Shown here one piece after another: positions 1,287 to 19,227 of a stretch of 37,570 nt of DNA; position 1 is the stretch's first letter; each line of letters begins with the position of its first letter. Under the pieces are notes generated by a model. It did no database searches. It was not told the DNA's origin and saw only the letters and a list, made by a program, of their open reading frames with translations. A program made the translations under genes and the position numbers. Origin of the DNA: Candidatus Ruminococcus equi (GTDB lineage: Bacteria > Bacillota > Clostridia > Oscillospirales > Acutalibacteraceae). The stretch is taken from the NCBI GenBank assembly GCA_018065465.1, contig JAGHTC010000030.1, forward strand, positions 1-37,570, read 5' to 3'.

Positions 1287-1335
1287 AAAGAATTTTTGAC
1301 CATAAATTGCGGATTATAGTCAGGGAGTGATATTT

Positions 1336-2127
1336 ATGAAAAACTTAATTAAAATTATATCTCTGTCAGTCTGTTTGATTATGTGTTTATCCATATTCGC
1401 TTTTGCCGCTTTTGCAACCGACGGTGTTGCCGAAATCGGTGACGCGGGAGATATTCCACCGGCTACCGAACAGCCCTATACCCAATATCAACCGCAGACA
1501 GAAGAACCGCCACAGCCGCAAACGCAATATCAACCCGAAACGGTTTACACACCACAGCAGGTCGAAACCGAGTACATTCCCCAGCAAGAGAACTACATCA
1601 CGGGCGACGGCAACTACGATTCTGACGGAAACTATGTAGACTCAAACAATTCAAACGGTAATGCGGGCTCTGTTTCCGACTACGCTTCAAGTCTTTACGG
1701 TATCAGTGACATCAACGATAAAGACCTTGAATCAAACCAGTGGAGTGCAATCCAGATTGACGACAAAAAAGATGCCGGCTCTGCCGAAGACTTTTCGTCA
1801 ATTAAGGACAATAAAGAAAAAGGCGACAACGGTACGTGGATACTCTACACAGGCGTTGTACTAATCGGTCTTTCAATACTCGGCATTATCTTCTTTATTG
1901 TTGCTACCGCTACATACAGAAAGAAACTCAAAAAACTCCAGGCTCGTAATTCACGCGAGCGAGGAGACTACAAAAATGAATCAAGAAGCAGAGCAGACTA
2001 TAGCGATGCTTACAAAGTTGATTCTCCGAGAAAAAGACATTATTCAAACGACAAAGATTTGAGCTATTCCGAAAGGAAAAGACTCAAAGCAGATACAGCG
2101 GATATTGTCCTTCCGCGTCAATACTAA
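1336..2127 (+). CDS. Membrane-anchored, Pro/Gln-rich secreted protein
   Basis: I place the start at the ATG at 1336 rather than the track's GTG at 1327, because GGGAG at 1323-1327 overlaps the GTG but is well spaced from the ATG. This gives 263 aa. It has an N-terminal signal peptide ending near AFAAFA, then a low-complexity stretch rich in Pro, Gln, Thr and Tyr (about residues 35-85), an acidic Asn/Ser/Asp-rich region, a single membrane segment (about 172-196, ILYTGVVLIGLSILGIIFF) and a basic cytoplasmic tail of about 65 residues with many Arg, Lys and Ser. The topology is type I: Pro-rich ectodomain outside, basic tail inside. I do not recognise a family. It follows the upstream lipoprotein gene by 49 bases and ends at a strong terminator. 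Confidence 0.65.
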   Translation: MKNLIKIISLSVCLIMCLSIFAFAAFATDGVAEIGDAGDIPPATEQPYTQYQPQTEEPPQPQTQYQPETVYTPQQVETEYIPQQENYITGDGNYDSDGNYVDSNNSNGNAGSVSDYASSLYGISDINDKDLESNQWSAIQIDDKKDAGSAEDFSSIKDNKEKGDNGTWILYTGVVLIGLSILGIIFFIVATATYRKKLKKLQARNSRERGDYKNESRSRADYSDAYKVDSPRKRHYSNDKDLSYSERKRLKADTADIVLPRQY

Positions 2128-2168: not shown

Positions 2169-2636
2169 TTATCGAAACAAAATCAACATATATTGACCGT
2201 ATTCTTCATTAAGGCAGTTTATTATTCCGTCTTCTGCCTGTGCGTCCTGCGACACCGTCACCTTACTGCTTGAAATGGTAATTCCGCTTGTGCCGCCGCT
2301 TCCGTAGTATGCAATTCCACTGCGTACCAAGGTGTTACCATCGTTATCTACCGTAACGGGCGGATAGAATTTTTGCACGACTATCGCAAGTTTCGGAGTA
2401 TTTTCAATGCTTATCTCCTTTGTGCTTTCTCCGTCTCCGACATAGGATATAATCGAATAGGGGTTTGTAAATTTTGCCCTCTCCGCCGATGTCACATGCA
2501 TTGTGGTATTTGCAAGGTGCGAACCGACAGTTGAATCAATTATACTGTTATCCGAAACGAAATCGGCTCGCTTTGGCTTGTCGCTTCCGTTCCATTTGCA
2601 CAAGCCGAGATTCGGTGTATATTCAGTAGATGCCAT
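2169..2636 (-). CDS. Short tail fibre / collar-type protein
   Basis: A 155-aa protein at the 3' end of the operon. The N-terminus (NLGLCKWNGSDKPKRADF) and the NTTMHVTSAERAKF segment match what is commonly seen at the start of tail-fibre or collar proteins encoded just after tail protein I in clostridial phages. The C-terminal half is beta-rich (SGGTSGITISSSKVTVSQDA) and could be a small adhesin tip. At 155 aa it is much shorter than most receptor-binding fibres. GGAGGA lies 6 bases before the ATG, and the start overlaps the previous stop by one base (TAATG), so translation is coupled. It would sit at the periphery of the baseplate. No chaperone or lysis gene follows it; the host terminator comes directly after. 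Confidence 0.6.
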   Translation of the reverse strand: MASTEYTPNLGLCKWNGSDKPKRADFVSDNSIIDSTVGSHLANTTMHVTSAERAKFTNPYSIISYVGDGESTKEISIENTPKLAIVVQKFYPPVTVDNDGNTLVRSGIAYYGSGGTSGITISSSKVTVSQDAQAEDGIINCLNEEYGQYMLILFR

Positions 2637-3208
2637 TATTCGTCCTCCTCTGTTAAGTTATCAAAATCGTCCCACGACATATCAAGAGCATCAATTTCCG
2701 TAAATGTCATATCTTTTTCGTCGAGTTCATCCCACGAAATGCTATTAAACAGCACCTGCCATTCAAGATGAGCGGGAAGTATTTTTTCGACCTGTGACCT
2801 TATCCATTCTTTTTGGGCCTCGGTGTAATCGCCTTCGGCATAAACCATAACACGATTAAACCGCGGGAATTCGTCTATCACATAGTCCAGATTAAAACTC
2901 GACAACGCCTTGTCAAATCCCGACAAGGTGAAATCTTTGCGACAGATACTTTCGCGCTTTATAAGCATATCCCTTCGTTTATTCAGTGGCAGGTTGTCCA
3001 TTGTCGGGCCGTAAATAAGTTCGTAATTTGTAAGTCCGTAGGTCGACGCCGTCTGGAAAAATGCCTCGTTTAGCATTCTGTTAAGAAGACTGTCAAGCCT
3101 TTCAATTTCAACAGCGTATGCCGAAATCTCACAGTTAACCGTGGTATTTTGAAAGTCATACAGCCCTGTGTCAAAGAGGGCTTTTTTCATTGAAATATAC
3201 GGTCTCAT
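2636..3208 (-). CDS. Baseplate wedge / tail protein I-like (XkdU, DUF2313 type)
   Basis: A 190-aa protein of the XkdU/YqbT-neighbour type (DUF2313, P2 gpI-like). The helical N-terminal half (EIERLDSLLNRMLNEAFFQTAS), the middle part describing tail-end geometry (LSGFDKALSSFN) and the YTEAQKEWIRSQVEKILPAHL motif are characteristic. In contractile tails this protein joins gpJ to the fibres at the baseplate edge. The C-terminus is a very acidic tail (WDELDEKDMTFTEIDALDMS) with a repeated DMxF/SW-type pattern. It starts 4 bases inside the end of the upstream baseplate J gene and its stop overlaps the fibre gene start. Confidence 0.75.
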   Translation of the reverse strand: MRPYISMKKALFDTGLYDFQNTTVNCEISAYAVEIERLDSLLNRMLNEAFFQTASTYGLTNYELIYGPTMDNLPLNKRRDMLIKRESICRKDFTLSGFDKALSSFNLDYVIDEFPRFNRVMVYAEGDYTEAQKEWIRSQVEKILPAHLEWQVLFNSISWDELDEKDMTFTEIDALDMSWDDFDNLTEEDE

Positions 3209-4269
3209 TCTCCCACCTGCCTGAATATGATGTCATACGGATAAACATACTGGTACTGATACGGATGCACATCCATACTGGCGGAAAGAAAAGTAAAGTT
3301 TTTCACTCCGTCTGTATGATAAATTATCTCGCCGATATCTTTCAGCAGAACATCTACGCCGATACCGAGAGAATTTATATACTCACACAGTTTGTTTCTT
3401 ATGGTGATACTTAATTCATCAAAATCATAGCCGTCTTCCTGTTCGAGTCTTACATACAATGTGTAATTCAGTCGTGTTGCCTGATAAACTTTGACATCAA
3501 CATTCAGTTCTCTCGATACATCCATAATATCCTGAACCTGACTTAATACAGAAGCAGTGACAGGTCCGCCTTTTGCGGCGACATATACATTCACCGTTCC
3601 CGTTCCTCGCGCTTTCGGATATACTCCCGCAGAATATACTCCGTCTATACTTTGAGCAAGTTTCTTATAATATACGGAATTAGTACCGTTTGATATATCC
3701 TTGTAACTTTCGAGGACTCTTTTTCGCAAATTTTCGTCATTCTCGGCATTTTCTCCGCCTTCAAACGCATTAAGATTTTTTACGCTCGTAATTCCAACAA
3801 CAGGTGTTACGATAACAGATACCGCACCCGCTTCGACATTTCCGCTTTTTCCCGCAACTTCTGCTGTTACGGGAGCGGTTACCGTTCTTACATTATGGTA
3901 CATAGTTACATCTTCATCGGTTACAAATCTTATTGCTTCATCAGAAGAAGTGCAAATAACCGTACCCGCGCTGACTGTGATATTTTCTGTCGGTATTGTG
4001 TCGGCATAAAAAGTTACCACACCTTTTGCTTTTGTCGCGTCTTTTCTGTTAAGACCTCTACGCTGGGCGTGCATATCAAGATACTCGCCTGTCGCTGTAT
4101 TTACAAACATCTGCCTGAGTACAAAATCAGCCTGAACATTTTGTTTATACAATTCTCCTGCGAGTACTTTGAGCCTCAGCATTATGTCTGATTCATCGTT
4201 TATTTTACACTGTGCCTTGCTTTCATATTCTTCTACCATATTATGTAAAATCTCATCAAAACTACTCAA
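3205..4269 (-). CDS. Baseplate J-like protein (XkdT/gpJ family)
   Basis: A 354-aa baseplate protein of the P2 gpJ / PBSX XkdT family, the main wedge component of contractile baseplates. It shows the typical N-terminal helix (ILHNMVEEYES), the YLDMHAQRRGLNRKDATKAKG segment, a beta-domain (AGTVICTSSDEAIRFVTDED), the GKSGNVEAGAVSVI strand and the GGENAENDENLRKRVLESY motif that marks the family. Length is normal. The start is TTG at 4269: GGAGGTGAT lies 5 bases before it, and no ATG is suitably placed. It overlaps the gp25-like gene upstream by 8 bases. Its presence argues for a contractile-type baseplate even though no sheath gene is found. Confidence 0.9.
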   Translation of the reverse strand: MSSFDEILHNMVEEYESKAQCKINDESDIMLRLKVLAGELYKQNVQADFVLRQMFVNTATGEYLDMHAQRRGLNRKDATKAKGVVTFYADTIPTENITVSAGTVICTSSDEAIRFVTDEDVTMYHNVRTVTAPVTAEVAGKSGNVEAGAVSVIVTPVVGITSVKNLNAFEGGENAENDENLRKRVLESYKDISNGTNSVYYKKLAQSIDGVYSAGVYPKARGTGTVNVYVAAKGGPVTASVLSQVQDIMDVSRELNVDVKVYQATRLNYTLYVRLEQEDGYDFDELSITIRNKLCEYINSLGIGVDVLLKDIGEIIYHTDGVKNFTFLSASMDVHPYQYQYVYPYDIIFRQVGE

Positions 4270-4609
4270 ACACTATCACCTCCGTACCTATATCCTGTCC
4301 TTTGTAATTTATTCTTATGTTCACCGTATAAGCATCATTTTCATCCGTTATCGAAACAACTCCAACATAAATATCGGGGATATTCACTACGGCTTCATTT
4401 AGAATAATTTCAAGCCTGTCCTTTGCATTTTCAAAAGAAAAGATGTTTTCCGATACCTCTGCTCCAAACTCTCTGTCATAGACAAAACTGCCCTTTTTTA
4501 CCGAGCAGGCAAGTTTTACTCTTTGGCGGATTTCGTCCGTTCCCGTTATGTAAACCGTGTCACCGTTATCAAGAGTTTTTATGTCTTTATTCTCAATTTT
4601 TACATCCAT
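4262..4609 (-). CDS. gp25-like baseplate protein (XkdS, lysozyme-like fold family)
   Basis: A 115-aa protein of the gp25/XkdS family, which in contractile tails bridges sheath initiation and the baseplate wedge. The diagnostic middle is DEIRQRVKLACSVKKGSFVYDREF, followed by a conserved-style acidic start of the second half (GAEVSENIF) and a C-terminal beta-hairpin (YTVNIRINYKG). It starts at ATG 4609 with GGAGG about 12 bases upstream, and lies between the OB-spike and gpJ genes as in PBSX. In known contractile systems gp25 contacts the first sheath ring, so its retention without a sheath gene in the operon is notable. Confidence 0.8.
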   Translation of the reverse strand: MDVKIENKDIKTLDNGDTVYITGTDEIRQRVKLACSVKKGSFVYDREFGAEVSENIFSFENAKDRLEIILNEAVVNIPDIYVGVVSITDENDAYTVNIRINYKGQDIGTEVIVFE

Positions 4610-4610
4610 A

Positions 4611-4949
4611 TCAGGAATTAACCTCCTGTCCGTTGATAAGAACTTTTCCGTTGTTTTTCAACAGAATTGTTGCTCCGCCCGAAGAAAAAAGCATCAATTC
4701 GCCCGGCTCTAAATCCCTTTGCTGTGCTACAACACCCAAGCATACATCCCTGTCATCTGTCGGCAAAACAACACATTTTTCGCCGACTTTCGGAACATAG
4801 GCTATGCCGTAGGGTGCAACACAGCAAAGATTAAATCGGTCATTTGTCGCTCCGACAGAAACTTCATTATTCGATGCACTTGTGACATTGCCGAGCGACG
4901 CATCATCTTTTGAAAAAGAATTTTTCGTTACATAATCAGTCAGCCACAT
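4611..4949 (-). CDS. Baseplate spike OB-fold protein (XkdR/gpV-like)
   Basis: I prefer the ATG at 4949 (112 aa) over the track start at 4958, because AAGG touches the upstream ATG but sits 9 bases from this one. The protein is short and beta-rich. It carries the OB-fold pattern of small baseplate spike or hub proteins (YVPKVGEKCVVLPTDDRD) and ends in the repeating-strand segment GELMLFSSGGATILLKNNGK-VLINGQEV that caps many gpV/gp45-like spikes. It would form the membrane-facing tip beneath the hub. It is flanked by the gp27-like hub gene and gp25, in the standard order. Confidence 0.7.
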   Translation of the reverse strand: MWLTDYVTKNSFSKDDASLGNVTSASNNEVSVGATNDRFNLCCVAPYGIAYVPKVGEKCVVLPTDDRDVCLGVVAQQRDLEPGELMLFSSGGATILLKNNGKVLINGQEVNS

Positions 4950-4950
4950 A

Positions 4951-5883
4951 TCAGACATCCTTCCTTTTCAGCACGACAGTAGTCACATCTTTTTTTGAAT
5001 TCAGCACATAGCGAACTTCGCTGACATAAAGATTTTCTTCATCAGAGCAAAATTCACTTTTTACTTTTGCACTCCTGCCCAAAATATCGAGGTATCTGCC
5101 CTGACAAATAAGTTTTATATTAAAACTGTTTTTTCGTCCGTTTGATATCATCATATCGGCACATTTCATCGGGGTATCTGTCAAAACTGCGTTGAGATAT
5201 CTCTCCCTTGTAATGCCTCTTTTTTGTGCATCTTCGTTTGTCACTTTGCAAAAATATCCGGAGGAATTTGTAACTTTGATATTCACTCTTGATATTTCTT
5301 CGCACCGCTTTTGTGTCTGTGTCAAAGAGATATAGTTAATATCACCGTCACCTGCGGAAAATACGACTTCGTCTCCGTATGGTGATAAAAAATCAAGTTC
5401 GCCTCGTATATTTATTCTCGGTGTCTTTGAAAAACAGTTGTTGAAAAAGTTGTACACCGCCTGCCAGTTTGACATACCCTTGCTGATTACAAGTTCACCG
5501 AAGTATGTGCTGTCGCTTCCGTTGTATTTTGAAATACCGAAAGGCTTTGCGTGTTTCTCAAAAATAAGATTTGCGTTGGGGTGGTTATATGTCACGGGAA
5601 TACTCTCGTTATCTATCAAAACAGCCGCCATAGAACGGGCACAGATTTTCAAATATGCCCCATCCGTTGAGACTATAGTTTGCTGTTCATCAACAACGCC
5701 GGTAAAAACAATCATATCGTCATCGTATACAACAACGCTTTTCAGTTGTGGTACTTTTTCATAAGAGAAAACCGCCGTCATATCGTCACAGGGAATGTTT
5801 TCTTCCTGATTTATCGACAACGCAAGCGGGCAAAATAAAAGCACCTTTGTATCTTCAATATCTGTAAAAACAAATTTCAGCAT
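4951..5883 (-). CDS. Baseplate hub protein (XkdQ/YqbQ, gp27-like)
   Basis: A 310-aa hub protein of the XkdQ/YqbQ family. The first half has the two-barrel pattern of gp27-like hubs (VVVYDDDMIVFTGVVDEQQT, then YLKICARSMAAVLIDNE); the middle has the family's FNNCFSKTPRINIRGELDF segment; the C-terminal part carries the second barrel with LYVSEVRYVLNSKKDVTTVV. Length is close to the PBSX homologue. It would form the ring that joins the tube end to the spike. It starts at ATG 5883 with AAGGTGAG upstream, overlapping the LysM gene by 7 bases. With no tube gene recognised, what it docks onto is an open question. Confidence 0.8.
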   Translation of the reverse strand: MLKFVFTDIEDTKVLLFCPLALSINQEENIPCDDMTAVFSYEKVPQLKSVVVYDDDMIVFTGVVDEQQTIVSTDGAYLKICARSMAAVLIDNESIPVTYNHPNANLIFEKHAKPFGISKYNGSDSTYFGELVISKGMSNWQAVYNFFNNCFSKTPRINIRGELDFLSPYGDEVVFSAGDGDINYISLTQTQKRCEEISRVNIKVTNSSGYFCKVTNEDAQKRGITRERYLNAVLTDTPMKCADMMISNGRKNSFNIKLICQGRYLDILGRSAKVKSEFCSDEENLYVSEVRYVLNSKKDVTTVVLKRKDV

Positions 5884-6395
5884 ACTCTCACCTTCTCTAT
5901 ATCTGTCAGGTCGTCTATATATCTTATCTGCGGATTAAGACTTACTAAACTTTCTATCTTTTTCTCATACATATTTGCAATATCCCACAGCGTTTCTCCC
6001 TGTGATACGGTATGTATAATACTTGTATCATCTTCGGTGTTCTCGCTTTTTGTCTCTTTGAAAACGAATTCATAGGTAAGCACATTTTCCTTTGCTTCGC
6101 CGATAAGAGAAAGTTTCTCAAACAGAGCATACATACAGATTGTTTTCGAAATACTCAGTATTCCCTGCTTTTTCAGTTTATAAACCTTTTCAAGGTTTCT
6201 GTATTCTTCAAGGCAGTTTTCGCCGTAGAGTTCACCTACCCCGCTGACGGTCCGAAGATTTTCTCCGAAATCTTTTGAAAAATGCTTTTGATACGGTGAG
6301 CAAAGATTTACAACATCTTTGTCGCTGATAATCTTAATCGACTTTGGATTGTGGTGCCAAGTGTATGAGCAAAATCTCATGGGTACAAGTTTCAT
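5877..6395 (-). CDS. LysM-containing tail hub protein (XkdP-like)
   Basis: A 172-aa protein with two parts. Residues about 1-105 resemble the hub proteins found after the tape measure in clostridial contractile prophages: FCSYTWHHNPKSIKI near the start, then the GELYGENCLEEYRNLEKVY segment and the strand VLTYEFVFKE. Residues about 125-172 are a LysM-type domain (HTVSQGETLWDIANMYEKKI, with SLVSLNPQIR), which in PBSX XkdP lies beside the hub. The start ATG overlaps the stop of the newly found 46-aa gene as ATGA. In PBSX this gene directly follows the tape-measure gene; here only a 46-codon gene and a 126-codon gene precede it. Confidence 0.75.
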   Translation of the reverse strand: MKLVPMRFCSYTWHHNPKSIKIISDKDVVNLCSPYQKHFSKDFGENLRTVSGVGELYGENCLEEYRNLEKVYKLKKQGILSISKTICMYALFEKLSLIGEAKENVLTYEFVFKETKSENTEDDTSIIHTVSQGETLWDIANMYEKKIESLVSLNPQIRYIDDLTDIEKVRVC

Positions 6396-6532
6396 TTTAC
6401 GCTTGCCTCCTGTTCGTCAAGAAATGCTCGCACAAAGCGTCTTGCGTCCTGCTCCAAGAATTCCGACAATATGCTTACGCTGTCATCGGGAGCAAGTTCA
6501 TCGGCAAATTCATAATATCTTTCGTTATTCAT
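6392..6532 (-). CDS. Small 46-aa acidic helical protein in the tape-measure position
   Basis: Not in the ORF track. Reading the minus strand from ATG 6532 to TGA 6392 gives 46 aa beginning MNNERYYEFADELAPDD and ending RRFVRAFLDEQEASVK. The start overlaps the preceding stop by 8 bases and its own stop overlaps the next start as ATGA. GAGG lies 6 bases before the ATG. This coupling on both sides argues that it is translated. The sequence is Glu/Asp-rich and looks helical (SILSEFLEQDARRFVRAFL). I do not recognise it. It occupies the position where PBSX-type phages carry the tail chaperone and tape-measure genes, so it could be a minimal length-determining peptide, an adaptor or a chaperone. Confidence 0.75.
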   Translation of the reverse strand: MNNERYYEFADELAPDDSVSILSEFLEQDARRFVRAFLDEQEASVK

Positions 6533-6905
6533 CTTCTACCTCGCTTTGTGTCATATTTTTTGCAGTAATCGTATATTTATCGCAAACATTCTTTGCACCG
6601 TCTGCTACTCGCTTTTTCTCTAAAAGATTACAGCCTTCATATGTATATGTTCTGCTTTTGTCGCAAACGGTCAGGGTAAAGTTACTGCTTGACAGTACAT
6701 CAAAATCGAAAAGCGAAAGAGCGACAAGTTCGAGTACATAATGCTTTTGCTCATTTACCGTGTCAAAAGGCTCACCTGACAAAAACTCGTTTATATCATA
6801 GTGCGAATACTTTTCGTCCGACACAAAATCGGTCACACCGTAGAGCGCAGTTTCGTTGACGGAAAGTGAGATATCCGTGCCTTTTGTTATCCTCAAATGG
6901 TTCAT
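6525..6905 (-). CDS. Unrecognised beta-rich tail protein, 126 aa (candidate tube or tube-initiator)
   Basis: A 126-aa protein I cannot place in a family. Its pattern is mostly alternating strands (ITKGTDISLSVNETALYGVT, then HYVLELVALSLFDFDV, FTLTVCDKSRTYTYEGCNLL and DKYTITAKNM), compatible with the small beta-sandwich or barrel of tube-like tail proteins. At this size and position, between a tail-terminator-like gene and the LysM hub, it is the only candidate for a tube subunit or an adaptor ring in the operon. The start overlaps the upstream stop as ATGA; GGAGG lies upstream. Tube proteins are usually 130-150 aa or longer, and this one lacks any motif I would call diagnostic. Confidence 0.6.
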   Translation of the reverse strand: MNHLRITKGTDISLSVNETALYGVTDFVSDEKYSHYDINEFLSGEPFDTVNEQKHYVLELVALSLFDFDVLSSSNFTLTVCDKSRTYTYEGCNLLEKKRVADGAKNVCDKYTITAKNMTQSEVEDE

Positions 6906-7339
6906 ACACTTGCCTCCTCATAAAGGCAGTAGCAAAGGTTAACACTGACATCTCTGTATACGGTACGCATTGTGCTTTCGTAAGAAATCGGAAAAAGTTT
7001 TATTGAAGAACAGACTTTTGACACATCGTTTCTTTTGATTGCATCATACAAAGCGTTTGCACATAATGACAGCGAATCACCCGAGTCAAAAGACTTTGCA
7101 TACACACGAAAACGCAGGGTAATATCATACATTCTTCCGACAAGGTTTTCGCCTGCAGATTCACCGATAAACTCGGTACTGATTTGGGTATCGAGAGTAT
7201 CTACCACTATCATTACTTTGGTGATGGGATTCGGGATTTTTTCGCCGGAATATCCCTTTACAAATGTGTATTCACTCAAATGTTCATCGTTTTTTATTCT
7301 CTTTACAAACTCATCAATGTTTTCCTCAATCTGTGTCAT
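6902..7339 (-). CDS. Tail terminator / completion-like protein
   Basis: A 145-aa protein with the build of tail-terminator (neck) proteins: an N-terminal helix (IEENIDEFVKRIKND), a strand region with a conserved-looking PITKVMIVVDTLDTQIS, then YDITLRFRVYAKSFDSGDS followed by a helix (LCANALYDAIKRND) and final strands (VYRDVSVNLCYCLYE). In phages it caps the tube and joins the tail to the head-closure ring. The ATG at 7339 has GGAGG 6 bases upstream, and the start overlaps the head-closure gene by 14 bases. The assignment rests on pattern and position, not on a strong motif. Confidence 0.55.
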   Translation of the reverse strand: MTQIEENIDEFVKRIKNDEHLSEYTFVKGYSGEKIPNPITKVMIVVDTLDTQISTEFIGESAGENLVGRMYDITLRFRVYAKSFDSGDSLSLCANALYDAIKRNDVSKVCSSIKLFPISYESTMRTVYRDVSVNLCYCLYEEASV

Positions 7340-7685
7340 AATCGTCCTCCCTCATTTTCTGATATTCAAGAAGAATTGCCCAAATATAGATTATGTCTTT
7401 CCCGACTTTGAACTGTTCACTTGTCACTACTGTATATTTTTGTCCCTCGTGGGTGATAAATGTATTCATCCCTCTTTCAAAAGGATGTGTGGGGTCGCCG
7501 ATATACAGAACATACTGATTATCGAAATATCCCGACGGAATAATCTTGTCGTTTATATAAAGTCTGTGTCGGCGTCTTAACGGCTGGATAAACGCTTTGC
7601 TGTATGTAGTCTGTCCGTCTTTTTCGATTTTAACAGAACTTGCATACTTTTCCATTGCATACCTTATTGTGCTTTTTATACTCAT
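7326..7685 (-). CDS. Head-closure / head-tail stopper-like protein
   Basis: I choose the ATG at 7685 (119 aa) rather than 7700: it overlaps the upstream stop by one base (TGATG) and GGGTGG precedes it. The protein has an N-terminal helix (SIKSTIRYAMEKYASSVKI), a beta-barrel-like middle (YSKAFIQPLRRRHRLYIND, then YVLYIGDPTHPF) and a C-terminal helix. This is the usual look of the head-closure proteins that follow the connector gene in siphophage and myophage head modules (XkdI-like position). It would seal the portal channel and receive the tail or baseplate. Confidence 0.6.
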   Translation of the reverse strand: MSIKSTIRYAMEKYASSVKIEKDGQTTYSKAFIQPLRRRHRLYINDKIIPSGYFDNQYVLYIGDPTHPFERGMNTFITHEGQKYTVVTSEQFKVGKDIIYIWAILLEYQKMREDDYDTD

Positions 7686-8041
7686 CAGACCACCCGACAA
7701 AAAACAAAGTCGTCAGAGCCGACAAGATCAGACACTTCTTCTTTTTCACAAAGCCAAAGTTGCTTTGCCTTGTTTACTGTATCTTCATCAACGGAAAACT
7801 CAACATCGCCCGCCTTAAAACGGCTCAGATTTTCTGCCGACATACAGCAATTTACTTTGTAGTAGGCAAAAACGGCACAAGCGTGAACAAGCCTTTTTCT
7901 GTCCGTTTTACTTGTGCTTTCACTTATCTTCTCATTGAAAAAGCCCATACAGTCAATAATAATCGGCAGGTATTTTGAAATTTCTTCTTCACTTTGTCCC
8001 GACACCAGAGCATATCTCTTTATGACTTCATTAAGACTCAA
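7685..8041 (-). CDS. Head-tail connector / adaptor protein (gp6-like)
   Basis: The track starts at GTG 8050, but GGAGG (8054-8050) overlaps that codon; a TTG at 8041 lies 8 bases after the GGAGG and is the likelier start, giving 118 aa. The protein is helical, with an alpha-helical bundle pattern (LNEVIKRYALVSG, EEISKYLPIIIDCMGFFNEK, RKRLVHACAVFAYYKVNCCM) like the gp6/gp15-type adaptors that sit under the portal and directly follow the capsid gene. Several Cys residues (CCM, LWLC, VFC) are spread through it. It is coupled to the head-closure gene by a one-base stop/start overlap. Confidence 0.6.
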   Translation of the reverse strand: MSLNEVIKRYALVSGQSEEEISKYLPIIIDCMGFFNEKISESTSKTDRKRLVHACAVFAYYKVNCCMSAENLSRFKAGDVEFSVDEDTVNKAKQLWLCEKEEVSDLVGSDDFVFCRVV

Positions 8042-8056
8042 GGTGCCCACCTCCGA

Positions 8057-9064
8057 TTAGTATGTCAGTTTCTTTGAAGCACCGACAAAAATCTTTGCAA
8101 AACCTGCGATACAGCTGATTGTTGCACGCTCTAACTGGCGGTCAATGAGCTTGTCGTAGTCGGTTGTAACATCGCCCGCTTTGACCATTTCGAGAGCGCA
8201 GTTTTTGTCAAGACCGATAATAAGGTCGGAAGAAATGGAAGAAGTGTGAATGAGGTTTGCACCCAAAGGTGTTACCATCTTGCCGCTGCCCTGGAAATTG
8301 AGTCCCGCTACAGCGTCTTTCATCTCGTCCATTTTGAGAATCTGTGTCATTGCGCCTGTCGGGGCAAGGATAGTATTGAGTTTGTAAGGTGACAAACTCG
8401 CCCAAAGGGAAACAAGGTCAGCGTAGGTGATTGTGTCTGCTGTTGCGGTAGAGATACCGGAACAAGCGTTGTTGTTGCCGTCACCGTTTAAAATTACATT
8501 AACGGCGTCGTTTAACTGTGCTTTTGCAATATATGCACCAATCTGCTTAAGTGTTACCGTAAACAGGTCAAGACGCTGGAAACGAAGAGCCTCGTATGAT
8601 GATACAAGCATTCTTCCGCGCTTTTGAAGTTTTACAAGGTTTTCCTGGGTTTTTACAACTGTCTGGGGAATGACTGCACCCTCGCCTACTGCTGCAAGTG
8701 ACTTGTCATCGTCTGTCGGATTTGATGTGATTGAACGGTAGTCCATACCGTCAATCATGGTTACGGTTGCAACAATATCGGAAAGAGCGTCTGCTTCTTC
8801 CATACCCTGCATTACCGCTCTGCTGACATATTCGGGGAAAAGTGCCGATGAATTTGAAGTCTGAAAAAATTTCTCAACACAGTCGGAACCTACTCCGCTT
8901 ACTTTGATGTCAAATCTTTTGAGCTGTCTTGAAAATGCGTCTAAACCGTCAAGTTCGGTGCCCTTGTAGTTTTCGCTCGGGTCTATTTTTTCGAGTACAT
9001 CTGTCAGGCTTTTGCCTGTCTGGTACATACCTTTTTCAAGTGTTATGTTTTCATATAAAGCCAT
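8057..9064 (-). CDS. Major capsid protein, HK97 fold
   Basis: A 335-aa capsid protein of the HK97-fold type. It has an N-terminal segment with a helical start, a central region typical of the spine helix and P domain (IAKAQLNDAVNVILNGDG), and a C-terminal A-domain-like region (GLDKNCALEMVKAGDVTTDY, then RATISCIAGFAKIFVGASK). There is no long cleavable scaffold region; that function is probably in the protease gene's C-terminal extension. The decoration gene lies immediately upstream and the connector immediately downstream. GGGAGG sits 8 bases before the ATG. The frame is fully open, and the protein should be the most abundant one if particles are made. Confidence 0.85.
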   Translation of the reverse strand: MALYENITLEKGMYQTGKSLTDVLEKIDPSENYKGTELDGLDAFSRQLKRFDIKVSGVGSDCVEKFFQTSNSSALFPEYVSRAVMQGMEEADALSDIVATVTMIDGMDYRSITSNPTDDDKSLAAVGEGAVIPQTVVKTQENLVKLQKRGRMLVSSYEALRFQRLDLFTVTLKQIGAYIAKAQLNDAVNVILNGDGNNNACSGISTATADTITYADLVSLWASLSPYKLNTILAPTGAMTQILKMDEMKDAVAGLNFQGSGKMVTPLGANLIHTSSISSDLIIGLDKNCALEMVKAGDVTTDYDKLIDRQLERATISCIAGFAKIFVGASKKLTY

Positions 9065-9079
9065 AATTTTGCCTCCCTC

Positions 9080-9412
9080 TTAAAGAATAATGCCGACACG
9101 GTCTGTGCCGACTGTTACGACAAGATAACTTTTTCCGCTTTCTGCTGACTTTACGCCAGTTGAAGCCGCTACAAGGATGTTGTAGCCCGCTGTGATTGTT
9201 GAATCGCTAGTTGCAAGTTCAACGTAGCCCTCTAGCTGTACAGTTGCGTAACCGTTTCGAACGCCTACGCATACGCCGATAAAGTCATCGTTTGCACTGC
9301 ATGGTGTAACGGTATCGGATGCACTCATTTTTACGAGTGAACCTGCTTCTACCGTACTGCTTGCAATAAATGTTGCTACGTTTTCGCCGTAGCCCTTAAA
9401 ATTTACATTCAT
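9080..9412 (-). CDS. Capsid decoration-like protein
   Basis: A 110-aa, Gly/Ala/Ser/Thr-rich beta protein with the pattern of small head-decoration or DUF2190-like proteins (TVEAGSLVKMSASDTVTPCS, FIGVCVGVRNGYATVQLEGY, TAGYNILVAASTGVKSA). It lies between the protease and capsid genes, the normal place for capsid cement proteins. Such proteins bind the outside of the capsid at three-fold sites and stabilise it. GGAGG precedes the ATG at 9412 by 6 bases. An alternative is a second structural protein of the shell. Confidence 0.7.
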   Translation of the reverse strand: MNVNFKGYGENVATFIASSTVEAGSLVKMSASDTVTPCSANDDFIGVCVGVRNGYATVQLEGYVELATSDSTITAGYNILVAASTGVKSAESGKSYLVVTVGTDRVGIIL

Positions 9413-9426
9413 GGTTTACCTCCGAA

Positions 9427-10392
9427 TTAAATTGTGAATTGGGTATTGTTATGAGTTTTTTCGCCTTCACTTTTAGAAAAAAGTTGAGGCTTTACGGGCA
9501 TTGTTTTTTCTGCCCTTTTTTCATACGCCGCTTTGAGTTCTTTTATCTCGCTGGTACAAAGCTTTGACAAAATTTTTTCAAGTGTTTCGGTTTTCAACTC
9601 GTTGTCGCAAAGGGCTGAGAGTTTTACTACCGATTTTGTCAAATCTTCTCTGTAAAGTTTTGCGTCCTCTGCACCTTTTTCAAGAGTAACTATGTACTCA
9701 AAAAGGTTTTTCGACTGCGACTTTGAAAGCGTGATTTCTTCGCCTTTTTCAAGGGCTTTTCTGATATTTTCCATATAATCTGCCTTTCCTTTATGTGCCT
9801 TTATTACGCCCGCACCTTTTTGTGCCGGTACGGCAACAAAACTGAATTCATACGCATCAGTAGGTGAAATAAGTTCGCCGAAGCATAACTTTGAGCCGTA
9901 TTTTTCGCCCTTTGTATGACTGCACGCGTTTGAGTGAATATCGTTTGAACAAATTGAGCAAACGACCTTTTCTACGGCACAGCCGACAGACACTTCCTTT
10001 AATATTCCCGTGTCTATCATATCGATAAAGTCTTCGTTTTTCTTTGTTATCGGAATATACGCTCTTGCAACAAGTCTGAAATAGTCGTCACCGAGCATTG
10101 TTTTTCTGCCTTCTATCGCTTCGACAGAACAAGAAATTATCCTTGCTGTCATATTCTCTGCTTTCATACTGTGGTCAACTATGCCCGTTTTTCCGACAAA
10201 AAGTTTTTCGAGTTCAAAAAGAGATTCCACCGTAAAGCGTTCGTTATCTCTGTCGATATCGTTGTCGCAAAGCACAACCGAGAAAAGATACACATCTTCG
10301 CTTTTGAGTTCTTTTCTTGAATAAGAATTTACGAGTGCCATTTCTTCTTCGCTGATACTGTCAAAAGTTTTTAACACCTGTCCCGTTTTCAA
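9427..10392 (-). CDS. Prohead protease with fused scaffold-like C-terminus (XkdF-type)
   Basis: A 321-aa protein. Residues about 35-205 look like an HK97/XkdF-type prohead protease: the likely catalytic His is in GIVDHSM and the Ser in LKEVSVGC; the family's PTDAYEFSFVAVPAQKGAGV motif ends the domain. Between them is a Cys/His-rich insert (CSICSNDIHSNACSH, then LCFG), also seen in related clostridial phage proteases, that may bind a metal. Residues about 210-305 are charged and helical (ENIRKALEKGEEITLSKSQS, LEKILSKLCTSEIKELKAAY), a likely scaffold. The start is TTG at 10392, with GGGGGTGA upstream, overlapping the portal stop by 4 bases (TTGA). Confidence 0.8.
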   Translation of the reverse strand: MKTGQVLKTFDSISEEEMALVNSYSRKELKSEDVYLFSVVLCDNDIDRDNERFTVESLFELEKLFVGKTGIVDHSMKAENMTARIISCSVEAIEGRKTMLGDDYFRLVARAYIPITKKNEDFIDMIDTGILKEVSVGCAVEKVVCSICSNDIHSNACSHTKGEKYGSKLCFGELISPTDAYEFSFVAVPAQKGAGVIKAHKGKADYMENIRKALEKGEEITLSKSQSKNLFEYIVTLEKGAEDAKLYREDLTKSVVKLSALCDNELKTETLEKILSKLCTSEIKELKAAYEKRAEKTMPVKPQLFSKSEGEKTHNNTQFTI

Positions 10393-11546
10393 TTTTTCAC
10401 CCCCGAAAGTTCAGTTTCGATTTTCTCTGCTTGGGCGTTTGTGAGTCTTGCGTTTGCAAGTTCTGTTTCGTCTTGCAGGTTGATATTGTTCCAGACTATA
10501 TCAAAGTCCGAAGTTTCTCCCGTAAGTCGCAAAAAAGTTTTTACTATCTTTTTTATTACGGGATTTATAAGAGTTCTGTAATAGTCGATTTCACTTGTGA
10601 GAATATCCGCTTGCTGGGCGCTCATTCTCTCGGTTGTTGACCAAGAAAGCCCGAGTAAAAACGGCGGAATAGACAGTTTTGATACAATCTGTTCCAAAAT
10701 GTGTTTTATCGGAACATCGTAGTCAAGTACCTGATTATCCGCACCGATTGCTTTTATCGACACATCACCGACAGATACAAAGTCGCAAACTTGCGATGTG
10801 TCACGCATAGCTTTGCTCCATTCCTTCGCGATTTCTTCTGCCTTTTTTCTTGAATTTGAAGAAGGAGAATTATCCGAAGGCTTGTATGTAACCGCAAAGC
10901 GAACATTTCCGACACGCTCGAAATTTAAACCCATTGTGTTGAAAATTTTCAGGAGTATCCCCGACACAAAGGGCAGCCCGCAAAGTATTGAATTGCCGAC
11001 AAGCGTTCCGGGAGTCGGATTTAAAAGAGAGAGTAAAATCAACTGCTGATACTGTACTTTTTCTGCTTTTATGCCGTCGGTCTTTACATACACAATCGGC
11101 TCTAAAATGCTCGTTTCGTAACCGATTTCGATATCCTTTAGTGATGCGTTGTAAAGAGAGTCAACAGACGAATTATCGCTTGACAAAACGATTTCGCCAA
11201 CCGCTGTACCGTATGTCAGAAGCTGGTCGAAATAGGTGCTGATAAACTGCCCTATTCCTATTGATGTCCCGTTTACTTTGACATTTTTCAAAAATGAATT
11301 TACGGCATTTTCAACTTTCTTTTTTTCGCAAGTTACAGAGAAAGTTCCCAAAAGCCGCACTATTTTTGATATAGCGGCATCAATTACCGGCACCGCTTCT
11401 CTTAAAGATGAATAAAGAGAAATCTGCGGATTTGAACACGGGTTGTATCTGTTTATCTCATAAAACGGATGTCCCATAAAGGTTGACGGAGAAACCACAC
11501 AAGTTTTTTCATCTGATGTTTTCTTTTTTGATGATATAAGTTTCAA
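10389..11546 (-). CDS. Phage portal protein
   Basis: A 385-aa portal protein, the dodecameric DNA channel at the capsid vertex. Recognisable features are the N-terminal IYEINRYNP-type segment (FYEINRYNPCSNPQ), the helix with VPVIDAAISKIVRLLGTF, the strand region of the wing, the LNPTPGTLVGNSILCGLPFV stretch, and the long stem/crown helices with the polar loop region LEQIVSKLSIPPFLLGLSWS-TTERMSAQQADILTSEID. Length is on the short side but within range for the PBSX-like group (XkdE position). The start is TTG at 11546 with GGAGG 5 bases upstream; a 19-base gap separates it from TerL. Confidence 0.85.
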   Translation of the reverse strand: MKLISSKKKTSDEKTCVVSPSTFMGHPFYEINRYNPCSNPQISLYSSLREAVPVIDAAISKIVRLLGTFSVTCEKKKVENAVNSFLKNVKVNGTSIGIGQFISTYFDQLLTYGTAVGEIVLSSDNSSVDSLYNASLKDIEIGYETSILEPIVYVKTDGIKAEKVQYQQLILLSLLNPTPGTLVGNSILCGLPFVSGILLKIFNTMGLNFERVGNVRFAVTYKPSDNSPSSNSRKKAEEIAKEWSKAMRDTSQVCDFVSVGDVSIKAIGADNQVLDYDVPIKHILEQIVSKLSIPPFLLGLSWSTTERMSAQQADILTSEIDYYRTLINPVIKKIVKTFLRLTGETSDFDIVWNNINLQDETELANARLTNAQAEKIETELSGVKN

Positions 11547-11565: not shown

Positions 11566-12807
11566 CTATCTTTTTGCGGCGATTGCAAAACACGAATCGC
11601 CGTTTTCCAAATAAGTTGTGACAAAATATCTTATGTCATCCATAGCGTGGTCGTTTTCTTTGAGTACCGTGTCTTTGCTTTTCTTTTCATCCCATCTGTA
11701 AAGCGAAAACTCTCTTTTTGCGTCTTCGCAGTTATCACAGATAACGATTCGTTTTTCTTTCAGTGCAGAAGATGTTTTGCGTATGCCGTCAAGCACATTA
11801 TTGTCAGCCGTCATAACAACGAATTTTCCTTTTCTTTTGATAACCTCAATGAAACTTTTGGCTGACGGGTCAACAATAATTGCTTCGATAGATCGTTCAC
11901 CGATAAGACTGATAAGAGCGTCATAATGCTCTTCGTCAGTACGCATAACGCCTTCTTTTTTTGAATCAAAGTAGTACTCATCTATTCGATACCACACAAA
12001 ATCTTTTCTGCCCCAAAGACCAAACGACGAGGGATTTACAGTGCCGTAATCGCAGGATACGACAAATTCGTGAAACTCCTCATCTGGCACAGGGCAAAAC
12101 ATACTGCTGTCCATAAAGGGATAGACAGCACCCGACACCGACACCCATTCACCTTTGACAAAACGGCGATAAAACGCTCCCGAGTACAGGCTCTCGTAGC
12201 GACTTATCATTTCATCACTCAATGACGGGTTGTCCTGCATCGTAAAGTGGATATACAAAGCACGTTTATCATCGCACTTTTTTATCCATTCTTTGTAGAA
12301 CCAATGGTAGGGATATTCGGGATTACAGTTGAAGAAAAATTTTGAGCCCGAAACGGAACAGCGCGCAAGAGCCTGCTCAACAAAGGAACGAGGCATCAAG
12401 GCGACTTCATCAAAAAGAACACCTGAAAGTGTCACGCCCTGAATAAGCGAAGCGCTTGACTCGTCTTTCCCCGAAAAAAGGATAAGGGTAATTTCTTTTT
12501 TCTTATCGCTTACCGTTATCCTGCTCGAAGAAATGTTGTCTTTGACAGAAAATCCGAGTTCTTTGAGAATAGGCAAAAGTGGGATTACCACATTTCGCCT
12601 AAGTGATTTTATCGTCTTTCCGCAAAGCCCGAACAGCCCCCCGTCGAATGTCGAAAATGCCCAAAGCACGAACGACAGCGACAAAGAGAATGTTTTTCCC
12701 GAACGCACCGCACCGTCACAGATAATTGCGTTATAGTTTTTGTATTTCGAGTTTTTCCACCAGGAAAGTGCCTGCAACTGCTTTTTCGAAAACGGCTTAT
12801 ACTCCAC
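11566..12807 (-). CDS. Terminase large subunit, PBSX type
   Basis: A 413-aa DNA-packaging motor and nuclease. The ATPase part has Walker A GAVRSGKT (residues 32-39), Walker B GVLFDE (129-134) and a coupling-type motif FFFNCNPEYPYHW (157-169). The nuclease part keeps the acidic triad: Asp253 in VSCDYGT, Asp313 in IIVDPS and Asp390/391 in HAMDDI. All catalytic residues being present suggests an active enzyme. Length is normal for the PBSX terminase family, which package chromosomal DNA in B. subtilis. The start is GTG at 12807, preceded by GGTGAT, and it overlaps TerS by 11 bases. Confidence 0.92.
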   Translation of the reverse strand: MEYKPFSKKQLQALSWWKNSKYKNYNAIICDGAVRSGKTFSLSLSFVLWAFSTFDGGLFGLCGKTIKSLRRNVVIPLLPILKELGFSVKDNISSSRITVSDKKKEITLILFSGKDESSASLIQGVTLSGVLFDEVALMPRSFVEQALARCSVSGSKFFFNCNPEYPYHWFYKEWIKKCDDKRALYIHFTMQDNPSLSDEMISRYESLYSGAFYRRFVKGEWVSVSGAVYPFMDSSMFCPVPDEEFHEFVVSCDYGTVNPSSFGLWGRKDFVWYRIDEYYFDSKKEGVMRTDEEHYDALISLIGERSIEAIIVDPSAKSFIEVIKRKGKFVVMTADNNVLDGIRKTSSALKEKRIVICDNCEDAKREFSLYRWDEKKSKDTVLKENDHAMDDIRYFVTTYLENGDSCFAIAAKR

Positions 12808-13288
12808 TTATATCACCGCACTCATCAAAGGCATTCTCCGCTTGGCTGCTCAACGCATCCAAAAGCGTGCTTGCAGATGTGCTTTCCTTTTCGTCAAGAG
12901 TAGAAAGTTTTTCAAGCGCTTTCACTCTGTCGAAAAACTTTATCTCCACCGATTTGTCAGTTCTTTTTATCTCCGAAACAGAGAAAAGGTCAAGCGAATT
13001 TATCAACTCTTTTGTCGGAGCGTTTTCATACAAAAGGCTCACCGCATCTGCAACATTTGAGAATGCAAGACGGTAAAGTCCAATCAAAACAAACGATGAT
13101 TTCAGTTTGTTTTTTTCTTTTACCATTCTCGCGATTTCATCACAAATGTCTGACCTGCAAATAAGTTTATTTGAAGCCTTTTTCGGATTTTGAAAACCCG
13201 CAAGTTTTGCCGAATGCTCCATATCTCCGTTTTCACAAAAATAAGAACAAAAATCTTTTTCTTTTTTTGTCAGTTTTTTCTTTGACAA
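12797..13288 (-). CDS. Terminase small subunit (Terminase_2-like)
   Basis: A 163-aa first gene of the operon. The N-terminal 75 residues fit the terminase small-subunit helix-turn-helix (LTKKEKDFCSYFCENGDMEH, then SAKLAGFQNPKKASNKLICR and DICDEIARM); the C-terminal part is helical and charged and should mediate oligomerisation and TerL contact. It decides which DNA is packaged. The start is TTG at 13288 with AAAGGA 8-9 bases upstream; there is no upstream ATG in frame. Only about 45 bases separate this start from a minus-strand terminator-like hairpin, which limits where its promoter can be. Confidence 0.75.
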   Translation of the reverse strand: MSKKKLTKKEKDFCSYFCENGDMEHSAKLAGFQNPKKASNKLICRSDICDEIARMVKEKNKLKSSFVLIGLYRLAFSNVADAVSLLYENAPTKELINSLDLFSVSEIKRTDKSVEIKFFDRVKALEKLSTLDEKESTSASTLLDALSSQAENAFDECGDISGV

Positions 13289-13429: not shown

Positions 13430-14824
13430 ATGTTTACAGAAAATTTTGAAGATAATAAAAAACTACTGCAAACCACATTGCGAAGCAGTGAATGTTTTGA
13501 CATCATCGAAAGGAACATCACGATAGCGGGCAAAAAAGCCGTGATGTTCTACATTGACGGACTGTCAAACGACGCGATTATGGAAAAGATTATGGAGTTT
13601 TTCTACAAAAATACAAAGGCGGAAAATTTCGAAGACGCCCGCACATTTGCAAGCGAGTGTGTTCCGTATATTGAAGTAGATGTAATCGGCGACCTTGACA
13701 CCGTGGTTAAAAATATATTAAGCGGTATTTCCTGCATTATCGTTGAGGGCTTTACCGAGTGCGTAATGCTTGATATGCGCTCATACCCCCAACGAGTTAC
13801 AAGTGAACCCGAAGACGACAAGGTGCTTCGAGGAAGCAAAGACGGTTTTGTTGAAACGCTTATTTTCAACTGTGCATTACTTCGGCGAAGGATAAGGGAC
13901 ACAAACTTTACTACTCGTGCTTTCACGGTGGGAAAAGAATCGAAAACCGATGTTATTCTTTGCTATATGGACAACCGCGTTGACAAAAAACTGCTCGACA
14001 ATCTTTCAAAAAGAATAGACAGACTTAATATCGACTCGCTTTCGATGAATCAACAAAGCCTTATTGAGGCGTTGTATAAAAAGAAATGGCTCAACCCTTT
14101 TCCGAAAGTAAAATATACAGAACGCCCCGATGTTGCGGCGGCTGTTGCACTGAAGGGAAATATCGTAATACTTGTTGACAACTCCCCCTCTGCCCTGCTT
14201 TTACCGACTTCTATTTTCGATTTGCTCGAAGAAGCAGACGACTACTACTTTCCCCCTATCACGGGAACATATATCCGCTTTACGCGAATACTGATTTCGA
14301 TTTTCTCCGTAATTCTCACCCCGCTGTGGCTGCTCGCCCTGCAAAATCCCGATTCCGTACCCGAGGCGTTACGCTTTACTATTGACACAGGACCGCAGAA
14401 TATTCCGATTTTTCTGCAACTGCTGATTATCGAAATAGGCGTTGACGGACTGCGCCTTGCGGCACTTCATACGCCCGAAAGCCTTACCTCTGCGCTCGGC
14501 ATTATCGGTGCTATTGCTTTCTCCGAATTTGCGGTTGATTCAGGCTGGTTTGCGGCGGAAGCAACCTTATATATGGCGTTTGTCACTATTGCGAACTTCT
14601 CGCAGACCAACTACGAATTCGGCTACAGCCTGAAATTTATGCGAATACTGTTGCTCATACTGACAAGGGTGCTGAACTCTCTCGGGTTTGCGATAGGCGT
14701 AGTAATAAACATTATTCTACTGTTTACAAACACAACCATTTCGGGAAAAAGTTATATGTATCCGCTGTTTCCTTTTCACGGAAAAGAACTACTCGGAAAA
14801 CTTCTGCGAATTCGCTTTAAGTAA
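13430..14824 (+). CDS. spoVAF: SpoVAF / GerA-family spore membrane protein
   Basis: A 464-aa protein of the GerA family, most like SpoVAF. The soluble N-terminal half has the hallmark motif YPQRVTSEPEDDKVLRGSKD followed by GFVETLIFNCALLRRRIRD. The C-terminal half has about five membrane segments, with RFTRILISIFSVILTPLWLL and the family's EIGVDGLRLAALHTPESLTS. SpoVAF and its partners form a channel in the inner spore membrane that amplifies germination. The gene stands alone rather than in a spoVA operon. ATG 13430 has AAAGGA upstream; AATACTA at 13396-13402 vaguely resembles a sigma-G -10 box, but I see no good -35. Its 3' end overlaps the convergent spmB gene by 8 bases. Confidence 0.75.
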   Translation: MFTENFEDNKKLLQTTLRSSECFDIIERNITIAGKKAVMFYIDGLSNDAIMEKIMEFFYKNTKAENFEDARTFASECVPYIEVDVIGDLDTVVKNILSGISCIIVEGFTECVMLDMRSYPQRVTSEPEDDKVLRGSKDGFVETLIFNCALLRRRIRDTNFTTRAFTVGKESKTDVILCYMDNRVDKKLLDNLSKRIDRLNIDSLSMNQQSLIEALYKKKWLNPFPKVKYTERPDVAAAVALKGNIVILVDNSPSALLLPTSIFDLLEEADDYYFPPITGTYIRFTRILISIFSVILTPLWLLALQNPDSVPEALRFTIDTGPQNIPIFLQLLIIEIGVDGLRLAALHTPESLTSALGIIGAIAFSEFAVDSGWFAAEATLYMAFVTIANFSQTNYEFGYSLKFMRILLLILTRVLNSLGFAIGVVINIILLFTNTTISGKSYMYPLFPFHGKELLGKLLRIRFK

Positions 14825-15326
14825 AGAAAATACTCACGGTAACAACACTCATAATAACTGCCGTAAAATCCGCCGCAAGCGCCGATATCAAGGTGTGGCG
14901 GATTTTCTTTATGCCTATACTTCCAAAGTACATTGTTATCGCGTAAAATGTTGTTTCGGATGAACCTGCAAGAACGCTTGCACATCTACCTAAAAAACTG
15001 TCTGCACCATAATCTTTATATATTCCCGTCAAAAGTGCCGTAGCCCCCGAGCCCGACACGGGTCTTAATACAGCCATAGGAAGTATCTCCGACGGAAAAT
15101 GGAAAAAATCCGTCACAGGCTTTACCAAAGTTACAATAAAATCGGTAAGTCCCGATGCTTTCAGCATATTGACACAAACTATAAGTCCTATCATTGTCGG
15201 TGCGATTGAATATAAAGTGAAAAGTCCCTGCTTTGCTCCGTCTGTAAATGCATCAAAAACATTTATCCTTTTTACAAGACCGAAAACGACAGTGAACACG
15301 AGAAAAGCGGGGATTATGTACTCCAT
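14817..15326 (-). CDS. spmB: Spore maturation protein SpmB
   Basis: A 169-aa inner-membrane protein with about four to five hydrophobic segments and the nucleoside-recognition (Gate) domain pattern: LYSIAPTMIGLIVCVNMLKA, then LRPVSGSGATALLTGIYKDY and RCASVLAGSSETTFYAITMY. SpmA and SpmB are made in the developing spore and are needed for core dehydration and spore heat resistance. Length is normal. It overlaps the 3' end of spmA by 13 bases, so the two are translationally coupled. No terminator lies between it and the convergent spoVAF-like gene; transcripts from either side must run into the other. Confidence 0.92.
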   Translation of the reverse strand: MEYIIPAFLVFTVVFGLVKRINVFDAFTDGAKQGLFTLYSIAPTMIGLIVCVNMLKASGLTDFIVTLVKPVTDFFHFPSEILPMAVLRPVSGSGATALLTGIYKDYGADSFLGRCASVLAGSSETTFYAITMYFGSIGIKKIRHTLISALAADFTAVIMSVVTVSIFFT

Positions 15327-15898
15327 TTTTTACGCCCTTTCAAAGTTTTTGCAAGAATAAGTCCGACGCTGACGGAAACAATTGATGAAATCCATACACA
15401 GAAAATCACATCAAAAGGTGACTTGCTCCCGTAACTTGCACGAAGTGACGCAACCGTTGTCGGCAAAAGTTGTATTGATGCTGTATTGAGTACAACAAAA
15501 GTGACCATACTATCCGTTGCTGTGTCGAGTCTTTTGTTCCCTTTTAACTCTCGCATAGCAGAAAGCCCCAAGGGAGTTGCGGCGTTGCCGAGTCCCAAAA
15601 GATTTGCACTTATATTCATAGTAATATATGAAAAAGCGTCGCTTTGTTCATCTACATCGGGGAAAAGTCTTTTTATCACAGGGGACAGAATTTTTGAAAA
15701 AACTTTCGTCAGTCCGCCCTTGTTTGCTATTTCCATAAAGCCCGACCACATACACATTATCCCGCAAAGCGTAATTAAAAGTTCTACCGCCTCTTTTGCG
15801 CCGTCTATTACCGATTGGGACAGCGCAGACATATTCCCCGAAAACGCGGCATAGACAAAACTCAGTGTTATCATTCCCGCAAAAATATACGAAATCAT
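15314..15898 (-). CDS. spmA: Spore maturation protein SpmA
   Basis: A 194-aa membrane protein, the first gene of the spmAB pair. The family motifs are GFMEIANKGGLTKVFSKILS, YITMNISANLLGLGNAATPL and MVTFVVLNTASIQLLPTTVA. It acts with SpmB in the forespore membrane during spore core dehydration. The ATG at 15898 has a strong TAGGAGG 6 bases upstream. A TATAAT-like sequence (minus strand, 15928-15923) lies about 25 bases before the start, but I did not find a convincing sporulation-sigma promoter. Confidence 0.92.
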   Translation of the reverse strand: MISYIFAGMITLSFVYAAFSGNMSALSQSVIDGAKEAVELLITLCGIMCMWSGFMEIANKGGLTKVFSKILSPVIKRLFPDVDEQSDAFSYITMNISANLLGLGNAATPLGLSAMRELKGNKRLDTATDSMVTFVVLNTASIQLLPTTVASLRASYGSKSPFDVIFCVWISSIVSVSVGLILAKTLKGRKKWST

Positions 15899-19182: not shown

Positions 19183-19227
19183 AAATCTTACCTCCAATAT
19201 TGATGACATTATAATTTTTCCGATTTC

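Follow-up and report, generated by a model that had tools for sequence, protein, structure and literature searches.

A GTA-like gene cluster of a Ruminococcus-like bacterium that probably derives from a contractile-tailed phage and may encode a one-ring tail

Introduction

What remains of a contractile tail when nearly the whole tail shaft is missing? This question is raised by a locus in the window, the stretch of 37,570 nucleotides from Candidatus Ruminococcus equi that was analysed here (contig JAGHTC010000030.1 of assembly GCA_018065465.1). In its operon the place of the sheath, tube, chaperones and tape measure of a contractile phage appeared to be taken by two small genes, encoding proteins of 126 and 46 aa. 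An earlier note on this DNA had proposed that the first could be a tube-like or adaptor ring, that the second could be a minimal ruler, plug or chaperone and that the tail would then be extremely short. The nature of both products, the number of tube rings and the kind of element that carries them are considered below.

Results

The gene cluster and its host flanks

The cluster comprises 18 genes on the minus strand, with TerS (13288) at its start and a fibre-like gene (2169) at its end, and all have a start codon that lies at most 20 bases from the previous stop or overlaps it. The head genes encode the small terminase TerS (163 aa, 12797-13288; Pfam Terminase_2, E 1.5e-10), the large terminase TerL (413 aa, 11566-12807; Pfam Terminase_6N, 9.8e-17; phrog_2, 6e-49), the portal (385 aa, 10389-11546; phrog_30703 portal, E 1e-120), a prohead-protease-like protein (321 aa, 9427-10392; phrog_16951, which has no assigned function, E 1e-95, and weakly the head maturation protease family phrog_18299), a decoration-like head protein (110 aa, 9080-9412; phrog_4588 virion structural protein, E 2e-18) and the major capsid protein, MCP (335 aa, 8057-9064; phrog_3922, E 4.5e-96; Pfam Phage_capsid_4). 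They are followed by two putative head-tail connectors, assigned by position in a conserved gene order: an adaptor of 121 aa (7685-8050), for which no family match was found, and a stopper of 124 aa (7326-7700). The next protein, of 145 aa (6902-7339), was placed at the tail-terminator position by its location and by fusions in relatives.

Beyond the tail-shaft interval, the 172-aa LysM protein (5877-6395; Pfam LysM, 2.6e-5) would be an XkdP-like piece joining tube to hub; its homologue in sheathed relatives matches LysM and DNA_circ_N. It is followed by the baseplate hub (310 aa, 4951-5883; phrog_177 baseplate hub, 7.6e-15), a spike-position protein (115 aa, 4611-4958) that is gpV-like by position and matches phrog_25991 (2e-13), a family of unknown function, a gp25-like sheath initiator or wedge protein (115 aa, 4262-4609; Pfam Sheath_initiator, 2.8e-7, slightly under the cut-off; phrog_120 wedge, 3e-12), the Baseplate J wedge (354 aa, 3205-4269; Pfam Baseplate_J, 2.7e-50) and a Mu gp48-like wedge protein (190 aa, 2636-3208; Pfam Phage_Mu_Gp48, 2.8e-10). 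The product of the final gene (155 aa, 2169-2636) matches phrog_33092 with its N-terminus (5e-5); the gene is conserved as the last one, a position that suggests a fibre role. The feature of a contractile-type tail, a gp25, J and I baseplate wedge with a hub, is present in the cluster.

Host genes lie on both flanks, and integrase, replication and lysis genes were not found near the cluster. On one side are the spore germination gene GerA (13430-14824, plus strand; Pfam GerA, 1e-131) and two 'Gate' genes, on the other a 266-aa gene (1327-2127, plus strand), which is a conserved neighbour in same-genus loci, and beside it a 396-aa gene (96-1286). The flank at 13430-15898 is sporulation related, the two 'Gate' (nucleoside recognition) proteins probably being SpmA and SpmB. 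Farther along, an 80-aa MazE-type antitoxin-like gene (15994-16236), whose toxin partner is not evident, has a cytidine/deoxycytidylate deaminase as the next annotated gene, and positions 16903-19209 encode a 768-aa calcineurin-like phosphoesterase with PT repeats and a starch-binding module CBM26, adjoining a sortase gene. Elsewhere in the host assembly a weak capsid-family match (L298, G000:C97:3264-3515; E 4.6e-4) in a 434-aa frame perhaps belongs to an ordinary prophage.

Two small genes fill the tail-shaft interval

The interval from the 145-aa gene at the terminator position to the 172-aa LysM gene holds the 126-aa gene (6525-6905, minus strand) and the 46-aa gene (6392-6532, minus strand) only. 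The 145-aa and 126-aa genes overlap by 4 bases, the 126-aa and 46-aa genes by 8 and the 46-aa and 172-aa genes by 4, which leaves no room for another gene; the interval likewise offers no ORF space for a long tape measure. Upstream of the 126-aa ORF and of the 172-aa gene there is a strong AGGAGG or GGAGG, and a weaker GAGG lies ahead of the 46-aa ORF. The sheath families PF04984 and PF17482 had no match anywhere in the host assembly, and the control genomes of E. coli, B. subtilis and Synechococcus all gave matches with these profiles. Coordinates, overlaps and sheath search confirm that the two genes stand in the place of sheath, tube, chaperones and tape measure.

The 126-aa family was found in 21 of the 36 same-genus genomes, the window's own being counted. 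Conservation of the 46-aa ORF, on which the earlier proposal had been staked in advance, was also found: its family numbers 142 ORFs among the fetched loci, from more than 100 relatives, some genomes having been fetched twice. The 126-aa gene had a dN/dS of 0.05-0.28 in most close pairs; for the 46-aa gene most close pairs gave 0.05-0.36, and a single 48-codon pair gave 0.90. Judged by these ratios the 46-aa ORF is under purifying selection in nearly all tested pairs, and given family conservation and dN/dS both ORFs are, as sequences, far above chance expectation.

The 126-aa protein as a tail-tube homologue

A Pfam search with the 126-aa protein gave no match, and a PHROGs search gave the unknown family phrog_27038 alone (E 1e-6). 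When 20 sheathless tube sequences were aligned as a profile to 10 sheathed ones with hhalign, the two matched over 120 columns with Prob 99.2 and E 1.2e-19. In the sheathed relatives the homologue of the 126-aa protein is encoded by the gene after the sheath, which we take to be the tube in such operons. Against solved structures the sheathless tube profile matched the tail tube of phage 812 (8q01, E 0.01); the sheathed tube alignment used alone matched none. An AlphaFold2 model of the 126-aa protein, built from a 67-row alignment, reached pLDDT 88.3 and pTM 0.77. The top Foldseek matches of this model were tail tubes, that of phage 812 (E 1.2e-7) and next monocin, and further matches were lambda gpV, phiCD508, Pam3 and RcGTA. 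Membership of the phage tail tubes is judged by fold and by homology to known tubes, and both were found; on the sheathed-tube profile match, the match to 8q01 and the predicted fold, the 126-aa protein is homologous to tail tubes, so that its proposed tube-like character was borne out.

A scan of genome contigs with peptide patterns of the 126-aa protein recovered no relatives because the sequence is too divergent, and they were recovered instead by a scan with an MCP alignment. No tube homologue was detectable in a small number of sheathless loci that have a baseplate, which implies that the ring is perhaps dispensable or has diverged too far to be seen.

Sheathed relatives and the origin of the 46-aa protein

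In relatives from other families of the order, the homologues of the 145-aa and 126-aa genes are separated by a gene of about 1 kb. In L045 this gene encodes a phage sheath (PF17482, E 1.3e-13; PF04984, 2.2e-10). The sheathed relatives (e.g. L045, L079, L277-L282) resemble the window in their head genes, tube homologue, LysM protein, hub, J and I, and like the window cluster they have no long tape measure. They differ from it in the sheath gene of about 1 kb, in mostly possessing 127-aa-type and 97-aa-type genes, and in a gene of 95-229 aa at the tape-measure position. Sheath presence undergoes at least six changes on a quick head-gene tree in which several forks are open. The gp25-like 'sheath initiator' is retained by nearly all sheathless clusters despite the absent sheath.

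Family searches with the 46-aa protein gave no useful match. Its family follows a pattern like (L/I)SExxExDxRR(Y/F)xRxxxEEEEA, and the end of the protein combines an (E/Q)xDxRR(Y/F) motif with an acidic tail. The tape-measure position, directly before the LysM gene, is occupied in most sheathed relatives by a gene for 95-229 aa, whose product has at its C-terminus the motif of the 46-aa protein ("RDxRRY", e.g. ..LDRAFQRDARRYDGGFELY). Because this C-terminal motif is shared, the 46-aa protein is best read as the retained C-terminal end of a tape-measure-position protein of which the remainder was lost. Position and general knowledge of tape measure proteins would place the motif at the hub or in the lumen. 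A surviving C-terminal end fits a plug or anchor better than a ruler; of the roles suggested earlier for this product, the plug is therefore kept, with an anchor beside it, and the minimal ruler is disfavoured.

Ring number and loss of the tail

With profiles rebuilt on unfused members of the 145-aa and 126-aa families, both domains were detected in one continuous ORF in 26 ORFs from about 22 distinct loci, and this fused state undergoes at least five changes on the head-gene tree. A fused terminator-tube protein implies equal copies of the two domains and hence one tube ring, unless internal starts in the linker are used; in-frame internal start codons are found in the linkers of the fused ORFs. 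The two genes are separate in the window, so that more rings are possible there. At an MCP identity of 65-75%, tube identity is 67% in sheathed pairs and 19% in sheathless pairs, whereas hub identity only goes from 39% to 30%. This suggests that constraint on the tube was lost specifically where the sheath is gone, as if the tube had been freed from stacking or sheath contacts. Moreover, with the ruler gone nothing would set the length of a polymerising tube, and a single ring does not need such control. We infer from these sequence comparisons a one-ring tail. The extremely short tail of the earlier note is thus favoured by the terminator-tube fusions, the missing ruler and the relaxed evolution of the tube, as far as genes can tell.

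In seven ORFs (L251, L260, L268, L271, L240, L071, L078) the terminator is fused to the C-terminal domain of the fibre, which is a single change on the head-gene tree. In the complete loci that were inspected (L251, L260, L268, L271) the genes that come next are not phage-like, and the fusion is not followed by any gene for tube, hub or baseplate. By gene content, one clade is without the whole tail.

Distribution, inheritance and genomic setting

The MCP gene was found in 112 of 200 genomes of the family, representing 79 of its 135 sampled genera, and in 43 of 295 sampled genomes across the order. It was present in exactly one copy in each of the 112 family genomes and never had an internal stop. 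Distances of four head genes correlated with those of rpoB in 27 genomes (Mantel r 0.83, a value that none of 2000 permutations reached). Nearest neighbours agreed with rpoB in just 16-18 of the 27, which makes occasional transfer possible. Within the window's genus the cluster is often at one chromosomal site, and in many same-genus loci it lies between the same GerA gene and the same 266-aa and 396-aa genes. For all cluster genes dN/dS in close pairs was mostly 0.02-0.36. Features of a GTA are thus found here: structural genes without integrase or replication genes lie between host genes, in single copy, with vertical inheritance, though some transfer is possible, and under purifying selection. 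The cluster is most plausibly a GTA-like element of the chromosome that passes mainly by vertical descent, and not an ordinary prophage. The description of the locus as the operon of a contractile phage probably holds for its descent, but the operon does not look like one that belongs to a phage, the element being single-copy, mainly vertical and GTA-like. Since gene content, inheritance and selection are what is known of it, the designation is kept to 'GTA-like'.

The relatives that carry names are rumen and gut MAGs assigned to uncultured Ruminococcus, Ruminococcaceae, Anaeromassilibacillus and Clostridia. Two human faecal records labelled 'Bacteriophage sp.' also belong here. The scaffold MT835952 has the cluster with its host flank, GerA being upstream, and the 46.7 kb record MT835508 (L044) has head genes and terminator only, beside a ribosomal protein operon. 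Such records would fit packaging of host DNA if they come from purified virus-like particles. Virus-like particles from Mexican faeces have been described (PMC8361208), which fits the faecal scaffolds, but that text is without MT accessions.

Discussion

The reading that we consider reasonably probable is that the cluster from 13288 to 2169 is a domesticated, GTA-like particle operon from a contractile-tailed phage, with a one-ring shaft and the 46-aa protein as plug or anchor. The tail shaft would consist of one hexameric ring of the 126-aa protein between the terminator ring of the 145-aa protein and the LysM and hub baseplate, and the 46-aa peptide would be lodged within the lumen or against the hub. 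If only one ring is laid down, ruler, chaperone and sheath become unnecessary. The retained baseplate wedge and fibre could serve as a fixed adsorption plate, from which DNA would be ejected without contraction; such particles would package DNA and may carry it from cell to cell. Several observations weigh against this reading: a gp25-like sheath initiator persists where no sheath exists, lysis genes were not found nearby, some sheathless loci that have a baseplate show no tube homologue, and separate genes in the window, like the internal starts of fused ORFs, would allow more than one ring. More tentatively, and at slightly less than even confidence, this can be extended to a family-wide GTA of gut Clostridia in which repeated sheath losses led to a single-ring tail with a 46-residue plug, and of which the end state is tailless, with a terminator that bears the receptor-binding fibre.

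A domesticated particle could also have a short non-contractile tail of several rings, in which 126-aa rings are stacked and the 46-aa protein is a mini ruler. In favour of this, the 126-aa protein retains the tube fold and has its own separate gene in the window. The ring pitch of a tail tube is 4 nm, and a helix of 46 residues is shorter than 7 nm and would span about one to two rings; terminator-tube fusions in relatives imply 1:1 copies, and the tube has diverged as if stacking constraints were gone, which makes a multi-ring tail unlikely. We likewise see little likelihood in a headed killing particle like PBSX, which would package host DNA and act as a bacteriocin through baseplate and fibre without delivering genes. 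The full baseplate and the fibre-like gene are retained, and by analogy with PBSX this possibility was raised for FpGTA (PMC12946183), but the contractile sheath that PBSX-type killing needs is absent from both cluster and genome.

The lack of integrase, replication and lysis genes nearby, and the further tail genes gone in some relatives, could also mark a decaying prophage remnant in which sheath and tape measure were deleted and the remainder is drifting. Against this, many genera have kept the genes intact, the MCP gene is without stops, dN/dS is well below 1 in nearly all genes, the 126-aa and 46-aa ORFs among them, and the same reduced arrangement is seen in one genus after another, tidy terminator-tube fusions included; decay is thus very improbable. 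That the cluster is a small temperate phage still active in Ruminococcus-like bacteria, or a satellite, with replication supplied by host or helper, is hardly credible: although IMG/VR lists relatives, mostly on viral contigs of 4-14 kb, and others occur in human faecal 'Bacteriophage sp.' scaffolds, there is one copy per genome in 79 genera, the site recurs within the window's genus, inheritance tracks rpoB, and the faecal scaffold MT835952 bears the same GerA host flank.

On the preferred reading of a domesticated, GTA-like particle operon, these loci record, step by step and in testable form, the dismantling of a contractile tail, from sheathed to one-ring, to fused terminator-tube and finally to a tailless state in which the terminator bears the fibre. 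The cluster is a candidate source of GTA-like DNA packaging among Ruminococcus-like bacteria besides Faecalibacterium and, if the particles work, a myovirus baseplate would be able to deliver DNA without sheath or ruler.

Among known systems, PBSX-type prophages and the contractile prophages of C. difficile (phiCD508, diffocin) share gene order and tube fold with the window; in PBSX the connectors are followed by tube, LysM protein, hub, gp25, J and I. These prophages have sheath, chaperones and tape measure, which the window cluster does not. GTAs of the RcGTA type have their structural genes in a compact cluster that is inherited vertically and contains no replication genes. In this compactness and inheritance the alphaproteobacterial GTAs of this type resemble the window, but RcGTA has a siphovirus-like tail with a tape measure and belongs to an unrelated host phylum, whereas the baseplate of the window is contractile-type. 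The nearest in kind is FpGTA of Faecalibacterium, likened here by its published description. Its 40 nm particles have no visible tail, hold about 8.5 kb of host DNA and contain baseplate and fibre proteins; it was termed the first podovirus-like GTA-like element (PMC12946183, Nat Commun 2026). For Ruminococcus callidus, GTA-like packaging of fragments of 4.6 kb is also reported there, but no cluster is named for it, and neither a sheath nor a one-ring tube is mentioned for FpGTA (PMC12946183). FpGTA I/II of Faecalibacterium prausnitzii is a domesticated element, near-ubiquitous in its genus and thought to be podovirus-like. It shares with the window a host among the gut Clostridia, a short operon with TerS, TerL, portal, MCP and few tail genes, and baseplate and fibre proteins. 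In another family of the order, L290-L296 consist of head genes, hub and little else, and resemble FpGTA I in content only; L290, L291 and L293-L296 have head genes, one or two connectors and the hub only, and then host genes. FpGTA is arranged in two separate operons with lysis genes, operon I having ten ORFs, whereas the window has a single 18-gene operon without lysis genes, in which a full contractile-type baseplate is attached and a sheathless tube protein is encoded.
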